A stretch of DNA of 64,000 nt from Arthrobacter cryoconiti (GTDB lineage Bacteria; Actinomycetota; Actinomycetes; Actinomycetales; Micrococcaceae), in assembly GCF_020905375.1 (NCBI RefSeq), contig NZ_JAJJBU010000003.1, positions 1 through 64,000 of the forward strand, read 5' to 3'. The position numbers and the translations under genes are program-made. Below the pieces are notes generated by a model, which worked only from the letters and a program-made list of their open reading frames with translations, had not been told where the DNA came from and did no database searches. This document shows positions 37,641 through 49,235 of this stretch, piece after piece. Every line of letters begins with the position of its first letter. Position 1 is the stretch's first letter.

Positions 37641-37685
37641 AACTGGCCGTCCCCAAACTGGCCGTCCCCAAACTGGCCGTCCCCC
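37641..37685. repeat. Three tandem copies of a 15-bp unit
   Basis: AACTGGCCGTCCCCA occurs at 37641-37655 and 37656-37670, with a third copy at 37671-37685 that differs at the end. The start AACTGGCC also matches the outer part of the palindrome that follows, so the repeat may derive from it. Confidence 0.8.
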
Positions 37686-40306: not shown

Positions 40307-41380
40307 TTGCCAGAATTTACCGCCCGATTTGCCACCGCCGCTGAAACCGACCAGTGGGACATCTTGGTCACAGCAAACCCCAATGGCGGCAATTTGCTCC
40401 AGTCCGCAGCCTTTGCTGCCGTGAAGAAAAACTATGGATGGACACCGCAATTTGTGGTGATCGAGGGTGCTGGCTATGTCAGTTATAACCTGGTCCTGGA
40501 AAAGTCATACCCCCTTCTAGGGCGCTTGTGGTACCTGGTCAAAGGTCCCGACACCACGGTCCTAGCGGACATTCCTGCCATGACACAAGCCCTGCGCGTC
40601 TTTAGCAAGCGTGCCGGTCTCAACGTCTTCGCCGTGAAGATTGAACCAGACATTATTGCCTGCGATGAAGCCACTACTGTGCTTTCTGGCGCCGGGTTCA
40701 TCAAAATGCCTAATCTGCAACCCAACGACAGCACGGCTTTGCTGGATATTTCCCCCGAGCCACAACAGTTGTTGCGAAACCTCCAATCCCGTGGCCGCAA
40801 CGCCGTCCGCCGAGCCATCCGCGAAGAGGTTGAGGTGGTTCGCATGGAACCAGACGAAACCACCATGCGGACAATGTACGAGCTGATGCTCGGCACCATC
40901 GCTGCCAAATCAAACACCCAGGCGCGCAAGTACGAATACTACAAACAGTTCTGGAGCGAGTTTGCTAGCCGGGGGCAGGGCAGGTTCTATTTTGTGTTTG
41001 AAGACGGTGTGGCCTCAGTGGGTGCCTTCGTGGTCAACTACGGCAGGAAGGCAACGTATAAGGACGGCGGATCGCTGCAGAAACGTTCACAATACGGGGA
41101 CTCGCACCTGGTCCAATGGGTGGCCATCAACGATATGAAGGAACTGGGCGCTCTTGAGTACGACCTCTGCGGCACCCCGCCGGCTGACCAGCTGAAAGAC
41201 ACCACGCATCCGTACCATGGGTTGGGTTTGTTCAAAACGAGTTTCTCAAAAACTGTGACGGACTTTGTGGGGTGCTGGGAGCTACCCTTCGCCCCGTTGC
41301 GATACAAGATCTGGACCACCGTGGCAGAACGAATAGCCCGCCAAGTGTATGTCCGGCGCACAGGGGACAGGTTCTATTAG
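40307..41380 (+). CDS. FemX/FemAB-family peptidoglycan bridge aminoacyltransferase
   Basis: 357 residues from TTG 40307 after GAGGG. It shows two GNAT-like halves typical of Fem proteins, with LLQSAAFAAVKKNYGW near the start, QSRGRNAVRRAIREEVEV in the middle and YKDGGSLQKRSQYGDSHLVQW with the family's core tyrosine/glycine region. YDLCGTPP and HPYHGLGLFKTSF close it. The family adds amino acids from aminoacyl-tRNA to lipid II peptide stems. Arthrobacter-type walls have interpeptide bridges, so the role fits. It is monocistronic. Confidence 0.88.
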   Translation: MPEFTARFATAAETDQWDILVTANPNGGNLLQSAAFAAVKKNYGWTPQFVVIEGAGYVSYNLVLEKSYPLLGRLWYLVKGPDTTVLADIPAMTQALRVFSKRAGLNVFAVKIEPDIIACDEATTVLSGAGFIKMPNLQPNDSTALLDISPEPQQLLRNLQSRGRNAVRRAIREEVEVVRMEPDETTMRTMYELMLGTIAAKSNTQARKYEYYKQFWSEFASRGQGRFYFVFEDGVASVGAFVVNYGRKATYKDGGSLQKRSQYGDSHLVQWVAINDMKELGALEYDLCGTPPADQLKDTTHPYHGLGLFKTSFSKTVTDFVGCWELPFAPLRYKIWTTVAERIARQVYVRRTGDRFY

Positions 41381-41581
41381 AAGCTTCCTGGCACCCATGA
41401 CTGACGCGAGGAGTGCGCAAAAGAGACGGTGTGGCCTATTCAACGGTCAGACTTACTCAAGGTCCATGGGATAGAAGTTAGGGTAGTGAAGAAAGTTCGT
41501 CAGAGATCCGTCGGGTAGCTGACGGGGCTGGGCCGACTGGCTGCCCGGTCGACGTTATTGAGCAGTTGAGGAAGTCATCAG

Positions 41582-43435
41582 GTGGCAGAAGATCCATGGA
41601 ACCCTCCGGCAAGGGCACTGCCCAAGATCGAGCCTAAAATACAGCCACGATCACTGCCGCGGGTCGAAGTTGAGAGCTCACCGGCGCCCAAACCTGTGCC
41701 CAAGGTTACGTCAATGCCGGCGCCCAAACCTGTGCCCTAGGTTACGTCTATGCCGGCGCCCAAACCTGTGCCCTAGGTTACGTCTATGCCGGCGCCCAAA
41801 CCTGTGCCCTAGGTTACGTCTATGCCGGCGCCCAAACCTGTGCCCAAGGTTACGTCTATGCCGGCGCCCAAACCTGTGCCCAAGGTTTCGTCCAAGCCTG
41901 CGCCCACGACGGCGGCCAAGCCTGCGCTCAAGTCGCAAGCTAAAACCCAGCCCAAGATTAGTGCCAAGGCGCAAGCCAAATCTCAAGCGAAAGTGCATGC
42001 CAAAGCCCAGCCTCTGACTCCCGCGCAGGCGCGGGCTAACGAGTCTGCGCGCAGAGTTTTGCGCCGATTAGTCCAGGGCGAAGCGCCACCTACGGCGCCG
42101 ATGAACATTGTGGATCGGCTGGCTGGTAGCCCGTATGCGAATCCCATGATCCAGGTGGGGCAAGCCGATGAATCAGCCCGGAAAACAATCGACTTTGCGC
42201 TGCGTCTGGCGGAAACCATGTTCCGTTACGGGGCTGGAGCTTTGGAAGTGGAGACGTCTATCATCGCTGTGACGGCGGCTTTCGGGCTGCGGAACATCGA
42301 AGTAGATATCACCAACCAGTCAGTAATTATCAACTATGCCCACCGCGACGGCGTTCCGATCACCGTGCTGCGCGTTGTCCGGTCTTGGACTAACAACTAT
42401 GCGGGCTTGGTGGAGGTGCATGAGCTGGTCACTGACATTGTGGGTGGCGGGTTGCCACGTTCCGACGCCTATCACCGCTTAGATGTGATCATCAAGCGAC
42501 CCAAGCCCTTTCCCCGGTGGATGGTGGCGTGGGCTGAAGCTGTTTTTGCCGCGGCAGTGGTGGGGGTCATCGGCGGGACAATATTTGGCATGCTCGTGGC
42601 TCTGCTGACCATCTTGATGGCCGGTCAAGTGGCCCGGGTGATGGGCAAATGGCGAGTACCGGACTTCTTTGTCACGGCCATCAGCTCCTTCATTGTCACT
42701 GCCGTGGCCGTGCTGTGTTTCATGTTCCATGCGCCCTTAAGTCCCTCAGTGGTGGTGGCCGGTGGAATCTTGCTCATGTTGCCGTCAGGGCGGCTGGTTT
42801 CCGCGGTGCAGGATGCCATCAACGGCTTTCCAGTCACGGCTGCTGGTCGGTTCCTCTCGGCATTTTTGACGTTTGGTGCCATCGTGGCCGGAATCGCTGT
42901 GGCCCTTGTGACCAGTGCCTTGTTTGGTGCAAGCCGTCTCGATGTCGCCGAGCCAATCGTCGGGAGCTGGCCACTGTATGTTGTGGTGCCTCTCGTTGCT
43001 GTGGCCACAGTGGCAATCTGCATCGCCGAACAAACGTCGGTGAAGCTCCTTCTGCCCACCATGGGCGTAGCCCTGGCAGGCTATTTGTCTTACTACGTGG
43101 GCATGGAATTTGGCCTTGGCGGCCGGTTTGCCCCGGCGGTGGCAGCGATCGTAGTCGGGGTGTTATCTCGAGTGATTGCCCTGCGCATGCGCGCCCCGCA
43201 ACTGGTGGTGGCCGTGCCGTCAATCATCTTCTTGTTGGTGGGCTTGTCTATCTTCCGGGCCATGTTTGTTATGACCCTTACGCCGGAAGATTCCGTGACG
43301 GGTGCTGTTGGCATCTTCAACGCGTTGGTGGTGATCTTGGCCGTGGCGGCCGGCGTCGTCCTAGGAGATAACATTGCCCGCCCGCTCACCCGCACCAACG
43401 GTAATAAGGACAGGCGACGTAACCGCAGACGGTGA
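41582..43435 (+). pseudogene. thrE: Threonine/serine exporter (ThrE) gene with three in-frame TAG codons in an N-terminal repeat
   Basis: The membrane part is intact ThrE: an N-terminal DUF1212 domain (FALRLAETMFRYGAGALEVE, then IIAVTAAFGLRNIEV) and about ten helices ending GVVLGDNIARPLTR, with a basic tail. It exports threonine and serine by proton antiport. The natural start is GTG 41582 with GAGGA upstream, in frame with the rest. A Lys/Pro/Ala-rich N-terminal region follows with six copies of PAPKPVPKVTSM. Copies 2, 3 and 4 have TAG for AAG at 41738, 41774 and 41810. An intact frame remains from the ATG at 41822, which gives 537 residues and keeps the whole membrane domain. That ATG is 10 bases after the last TAG, so reinitiation could yield working protein. 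Status therefore ambiguous: broken long form, possibly functional short form. Confidence 0.85.
41681..41896 (+). repeat. Six tandem 36-bp units in thrE
   Basis: Units begin at 41681, 41717, 41753, 41789, 41825 and 41861, and each encodes PAPKPVPKVTSM or a variant. They are nearly identical at base level, which points to recent expansion. A single A-to-T change is present in three neighbouring units. Confidence 0.92.
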
Positions 43436-49026: not shown

Positions 49027-49235
49027 AAAGGCGTCCTTGCCCTGCGGGCAGTAAGATTTCGCGAAATGCGTGCGAAATCCATCCCCGCTTTGGGCGAGGA
49101 CGCCTTTTGTTTGTCTGTTGCAAGGTGTCCTTGCCCCGCGGGCAGTAAGATTTCGCGAAATGCGTGCGAAATCCATCCCCGCTTCGGGCGAGGACGCCTT
49201 TTGTTTGTCTGTTGCAAGGTGTCCTTGCCCCGCGT
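49027..49235. repeat. 94-bp tandem repeat with nested hairpins after groEL
   Basis: Copy 1 spans 49027-49120, copy 2 49121-49214, and a truncated third 49215-49235. Each full unit has an outer stem (AAGGCGTCCTTGCCC against GGGCGAGGACGCCTT) and an inner one (GATTTCGC facing GCGAAATC, e.g. 49055-49079), followed by TTTTG. Copy 1 can act as the groEL terminator; copy 2 is a near-identical duplicate. Confidence 0.88.

Follow-up and report, generated by a model that had tools for sequence, protein, structure and literature searches.

We propose that, in the window (the whole stretch of 64,000 nucleotides of Arthrobacter cryoconiti DNA analysed here), a nonsense change in the 5′ extension of a gene for a ThrE-family exporter also built a leaderless promoter for a 537-aa form of the protein, and that slippage then copied the repeat unit bearing it; judging from the DNA sequence, we give this reading a probability of about one in two. 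According to the proposed mechanism, a single A-to-T change would have turned AAG GTT into TAG GTT within the repeat array of the extension, and that base change would have had two effects at once, namely the closure of the long frame and the completion of a TANNNT −10 hexamer that precedes an in-frame ATG by 12 bases. The unit would then have been brought to three adjacent copies by slippage or by unequal exchange, transcription would start at position 41822, and the leaderless mRNA would be translated into the 537-aa form. The copying would have been recent enough for units 2–4 to be identical, and the base change may have been either selected or merely tolerated; relatives manage with extensions down to 44 residues. 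The features of this gene and of its upstream neighbour described below are on the forward strand.

The array consists of 36-bp tandem units, occupies positions 41681–41896, and lies in the region specifying the N-terminal extension, which is a low-complexity Lys/Pro/Ala sequence; Tandem Repeats Finder reported it as 41681–41906, with a period of 36, 6.3 copies, 96% matches and a score of 396. A first-pass annotation of this DNA had described six like units. This is right for the five units starting at 41681, 41717, 41753, 41789 and 41825, which are conserved and follow the pattern PAPKPVP[K/stop]VTSM, with TCA in unit 1 and TCT in units 2–5, but not for the sixth, starting at 41861, which is divergent and ends in VSSK instead of VTSM. 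The same annotation had placed TAG codons in units 2, 3 and 4, 36 bases apart, and we confirmed them, in frame, at positions 41738, 41774 and 41810; AAG is found in units 1, 5 and 6, and the three TAG units are identical, adjacent and flanked by AAG units. Unit 5 keeps AAG GTT ACG TCT ATG where units 2–4 read TAG GTT ACG TCT ATG. An in-frame ATG is indeed present after each TAG (41750, 41786 and 41822), with 9 bases between the two codons. The three TAGGTT hexamers (41738–41743 in unit 2, 41774–41779 in unit 3 and 41810–41815 in unit 4) are at the same time amber codons and candidate −10 elements, the first being 12 bases before ATG 41750 and the third 12 bases before ATG 41822, which is the leaderless spacing. 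Two 8-codon mini-ORFs can be read in the sequence, one from the first to the second TAG (41750–41776) and the other from the second to the third (41786–41812).

Since independent point changes are not a plausible source of the same stop at 36-base intervals in units that otherwise do not differ, one change followed by copying of the unit appears to be the simple explanation of the three TAGs, and the identity of units 2–4 supports the earlier suggestion that a single A-to-T change was spread by unit duplication. When 395 genomes sampled from the family were searched at the DNA level, the full array was found in its own genome only; in 12 others a single short match to the array was obtained, of 29–91 bases. 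It might be argued that the TAG units are a product of sequencing or assembly, or that at least their number is. Assembly tends to collapse short tandem repeats, and the genome is represented by a single assembly, a draft of 57 contigs. On the other hand, the same base is altered in three units and the flanking ones keep AAG, whereas assembly errors would rather be expected to alter the number of units; moreover, the completeness of the genome is 99.97% and its contamination 0.03%. We thus consider an artefact quite unlikely. Elsewhere in the window two further repeats were observed: a 94-bp unit in 2.2 copies (97%) at 49028–49234, and a perfect 15-bp repeat in 2.9 copies at 37641–37684, just past a predicted gene which, by resemblance only, we take to be enoyl-CoA-hydratase-like.

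The first-pass annotation had also stated that the long form is stopped. To this regard, no CUA, UUA or UCA anticodon was found among the 48 distinct tRNA sequences identified by ARAGORN, in a survey that included all the 51 tRNA places of the genome, through 50 loci covering them with at least one ARAGORN tRNA each; no tRNA able to read TAG, on which readthrough or recoding would depend, was found in this set. In the 464-kb sample described below, TAG terminates 109 of the 346 predicted genes. The gene immediately upstream (40307–41380), which we presume to be FemX-like on the basis of resemblance, is one more case in point, as its frame ends at a TAG (C-terminus ..RRTG..FY) that coincides with the conserved C-terminus of several relatives; the shared C-terminus indicates that translation stops at TAG here. 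The long form can, thus, be regarded as closed, as had been claimed. A change of the genetic code, or TAG suppression, was ruled out by the lack of a CUA-anticodon tRNA together with the use of TAG as gene end. RNA structure as a control element was likewise dismissed, as the region 41560–41860 folds no better than shuffled sequences (z 1.16; 88 of 100 shuffles were at least as good).

The frame starting at the proposed leaderless start, 41822, is open up to 43435 and encodes an intact ThrE-family protein of 537 aa. Both Pfam domains are present: PF06738 (ThrE) at 42191–42910, with an E value of 5.9e-58 and 196.6 bits against a gathering cut-off of 26.3, and PF12821 (ThrE_2) at 42992–43366, with an E value of 1e-09 and 39.1 bits against a cut-off of 27. 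This agrees with the previous proposal that an intact transporter could be produced from this position. ThrE is the threonine/serine exporter of Corynebacterium glutamicum; the protein of the window has the same two domains in the same order, but it differs in that its N-terminal extension is variable among relatives and in that it scored 204.7 bits against the NCBIfam ThrE equivalog NF047720, the cut-off of which is 550. Because of this lower score, we refer to it as a ThrE-family exporter and assign no substrate to it. When the 445-aa domain part was used as query, the only match that its own genome gave with an E value of 0.001 or lower was itself, and a thrE-family gene was found in each of the 23 searched genomes of the genus, own genome included. 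A gene at 85% identity was also observed in a record titled Sporosarcina beigongshangi; that genome is placed in the same genus as the window, and the record looks mislabelled. The closure of the original frame could be read as the sign of a pseudogene on its way out; nevertheless, the frame from 41822 runs uninterrupted through both Pfam domains to its end, and the 445-aa part is stop-free and 88% identical to its best match in the genus, making such a fate very improbable.

As for the old start, a Shine-Dalgarno-like GAGGA (41568–41572) lies 9 bases before GTG 41582, which is in frame with the ThrE domain and opens a 52-codon frame (41582–41740, N-terminus VAEDPWNP) ending at the first TAG. 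This GTG, with its GAGGA, had been indicated as the natural start, and the assignment is backed by matching GTG starts, each with a Shine-Dalgarno-like site, in three relatives, in which the N-termini VESEPRNP (L003), VGVDRWNP (L013) and VGSDRRIQ (L015) resemble that of the window. In addition, LTPAQARAN is found ahead of the domain in L003, in L013 and in the window, where it opens the block LTPAQARAN..LVQGEAPPTA (42014–42097) common to the three. On the basis of these similar N-termini and of the shared block, it is highly probable that GTG 41582 was the ancestral start in this gene. The eight matching residues are separated from the LTPAQARAN block by 24 residues in L003, 13 in L013 and about 10 in L015; the same interval in the window amounts to 136 codons, lengthened by the repeats and with the three stops included.

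A plausible in-frame start with a Shine-Dalgarno-like site was found in 21 of the 22 other genomes of the genus (part of a set of 80 named loci was inspected by eye, 23 genus loci and six others among them, and the start was picked by eye in relatives showing several candidates), which indicates that, as far as seen, thrE is not leaderless in the genus. In these 21 relatives the stretch from the start to the domain ranges from 44 to 151 residues, with a median of 85, and in 9 of them it is at least as long as the 92 residues of the form from 41822; the closed long form would have 172. Given this range, the loss of the first 80 codons leaves a protein of ordinary shape. Two types of thrE N-terminus were observed in the genus, one GTG-started and V..D.WNP-like, the other ATG-started and mostly M[ST]... 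That the four N-termini of the GTG type (L001, L003, L013 and L015) form one clade was ruled out by the domain tree, on which this label requires 3 changes, with at least 2 of them forced by well-supported branches. The N-terminal type has, therefore, a history of its own, and its disagreement with the membrane-domain tree points to exchange or to repeated change. Two loci showed peculiarities of a different sort. In L039, about 15 Gln codons lie in the thrE frame, open, just 5′ of its ATG start. In L018 (genome G006), which is the one remaining genome of the 22, a conserved ATG (MTDKPSSWDQ...), about 340 bases before the domain, lies in another frame than the ThrE domain; the extension may be broken there too, or a sequencing indel is possible, the completeness of that genome being 95%.

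A TANNNT hexamer about 12 bp before the start codon is reported to mark leaderless genes in bacteria, and such genes make up on average 19.2% of the genes in the Actinobacteria examined in the same work (PMC3160421). We looked at this signature in 464 kb, made of the window and 400 kb of the same contig and corresponding to about 13% of the genome, in which a simple, uncurated ORF selection with longest-frame starts gave 346 genes; in view of these starts, decoy ORFs and other offsets were taken as controls. TANNNT was found at exactly −12 in 27 of 283 ATG/GTG genes (thrE excluded) and at −13 in 10, against a mean of 2.47 and a maximum of 6 at the other offsets from 6 to 39 (p 1e-19). The peak at −12 persisted in the longer genes (19 of 240 at 200 aa or more, and 9 of 175 at 300 aa or more). 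The commonest hexamer at this position, TAGGCT (7 of the 27), is itself an in-frame amber codon. In fact, −12 is in frame, so that a −10 box beginning with TAG is an in-frame stop and the longest-frame start lands after it automatically; for this reason we tested the excess of T at −7, which is not demanded by any stop codon. With an in-frame TAG or TAA at −12, T at −7 occurred in 21 of 33 genes (thrE excluded), compared to 50 of 371 decoy ORFs (p 6e-10). A matrix-free control, in which the three array sites were excluded and frames of at least 100 aa after ATG/GTG were counted, gave a similar picture: TAGNNT at −12 opened such a frame in 20 of 34 cases, versus 23 of 155 at −6, −9, −15, −18, −21 and −24; for TAGG[C/T]T the values were 10 of 11 at −12 and 1 of 23 at other in-frame offsets; and for TAG at −12 lacking T at −7 they were 13 of 199. 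At internal in-frame ATG/GTG codons of the predicted genes, TANNNT at −12 was present in 15 of 6229.

As regards the thrE gene itself, the first T of TAGGTT at 41810 is 12 bases before ATG 41822, as in the leaderless signature. A hexamer as good as this one precedes only 17 of the 31,294 ATG/GTG triplets in the 464 kb, three of which belong to the array; among the remaining 14, 11 are predicted gene starts, a count that is partly circular since the matrix was built from the 27 gene-start sites. The flanking sequence did not match that of other leaderless candidates: with thrE excluded from the matrix, the 18-base context of 41822 scored 0.34, under all the 27 other sites (leave-one-out minimum 1.3), and this score was reached by 461 of the 31,294 triplets; the value of 4.8 obtained with thrE among 28 matrix sites is circular. 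The hexamer at 41810 is preceded by CCC and not by [G/C][A/G]N, which is found before 49% of the TANNNT boxes of M. tuberculosis (PMC3898074). A scan of 41300–42200 for classic sigma-70 promoters gave none, although no conserved −35 motif was found in the M. tuberculosis TANNNT study either (PMC3898074). In the present extension 41 single-base nonsense changes are possible, 2 of which would make TANNNT-N6-RTG, both of them falling in the same AAG codon, in units 1 and 5. With 2 of 41 nonsense changes giving the signature, and with a single base added to what the repeat already supplies being sufficient for it, the match at −12 before 41822 could be a coincidence, and not a remote one. For the first two TAG copies no evident function can be seen.

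A different explanation, to be taken seriously although we hold it to be less likely than not, is that the extension is dispensable, that the nonsense change was neutral and created no new promoter, and that ThrE is produced from the old transcript, either through reinitiation, by passing three times through TAG, 9 bases and ATG, or through internal initiation at 41822, at 41858 or at another in-frame start. Such tolerated decay is consistent with the free variation of the extension within the genus, both in length (44–151 residues in the 21 relatives) and in sequence, with the ATG lying in frame 9 bases past every TAG, and with an AAGG located 8 bases before ATG 41858, which could be a weak ribosome site; the out-of-frame ATG of L018 suggests that a broken extension may be tolerated elsewhere. 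By contrast, three terminations and reinitiations in series would presumably cost much of the yield, and ribosomes coming from the old start would have to pass the two 8-codon mini-ORFs; a leaderless start at 41822 explains the arrangement at least as well. Furthermore, there is no good Shine-Dalgarno sequence before 41822, where the AAGG of the repeat reads TAGG, and the match at −12 would remain a coincidence.

The number of the units deserves a separate consideration, as the first-pass annotation had suggested that changes in it could switch the N-terminus on and off. A deletion between AAG units could, in principle, drop all the TAG units at once. Nevertheless, since the unit is 12 codons long, the number of units never alters the frame; a single TAG left in the array suffices to keep the long form closed, and once all the TAG units were lost none would be left to switch back, so that the switch would be one-way at best. 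On these arguments we abandoned the idea of an on/off device, and a reversible control of the N-terminus by repeat number seems to us scarcely credible. Each TAG unit has the same hexamer and the same spacing, and therefore there may be three start sites in the array, the last being the only one to open ThrE. Going further, the repeat might have passed from coding for protein to working as a promoter array, with three leaderless promoters stacked 36 bp apart, the number of which, and the exporter output with it, would change by slippage; we regard this possibility as unlikely.

If the reading that we prefer, in which the amber codon is also the −10 element of a leaderless start, were true, one base change would have swapped a Shine-Dalgarno start for a leaderless one with the protein kept, and the stop codon of the old form would be the promoter of the new form. 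In 21 of the 33 predicted genes with an in-frame TAG or TAA at −12, the T completing TANNNT is present as well, so that changes of this kind may offer led genes of Actinobacteria a simple path to leaderless starts and to shortened N-termini. For annotators, this would mean that a start codon found right after an in-frame TAG may be genuine and leaderless.

Compared to the leaderless genes of Actinobacteria (PMC3160421), the site of the window has the same hexamer and the same spacing, and the peak at −12 was recovered here independently; the difference is in its flanks, which fit poorly in comparison with the 27 other sites of this genome. In mycobacteria, base changes completing TANNNT have been reported to create new transcription starts, some of which lie inside genes and lead to shorter proteins (PMC3898074, PMC4128351, PMC10653884). 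Those cases concern point changes between strains or recoded genes, and the parts of these papers on which we rely describe neither a nonsense codon serving as −10 element nor its tandem amplification. Similarly, a stop codon acting as −10 element of the next start, or nonsense-bearing repeat units, were not found among the open-licence literature matches listed. A close parallel is CYP144A1 of Mycobacterium tuberculosis, again in an actinobacterium, in which the long form starts with GTG and a leaderless start inside the gene yields an enzyme shortened at its N-terminus (PMC4880925). According to that report, neither form of CYP144A1 is closed, and it was transcriptomics that revealed the internal start; in the window, the same base change shuts off the long form and makes the candidate −10 hexamer, and the unit is present in three tandem copies. 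Thus, −10 hexamers made by mutation and internal leaderless starts are already known, and what the thrE gene of A. cryoconiti would add to them is a stop codon doubling as the −10 element of the next start and amplified in tandem.
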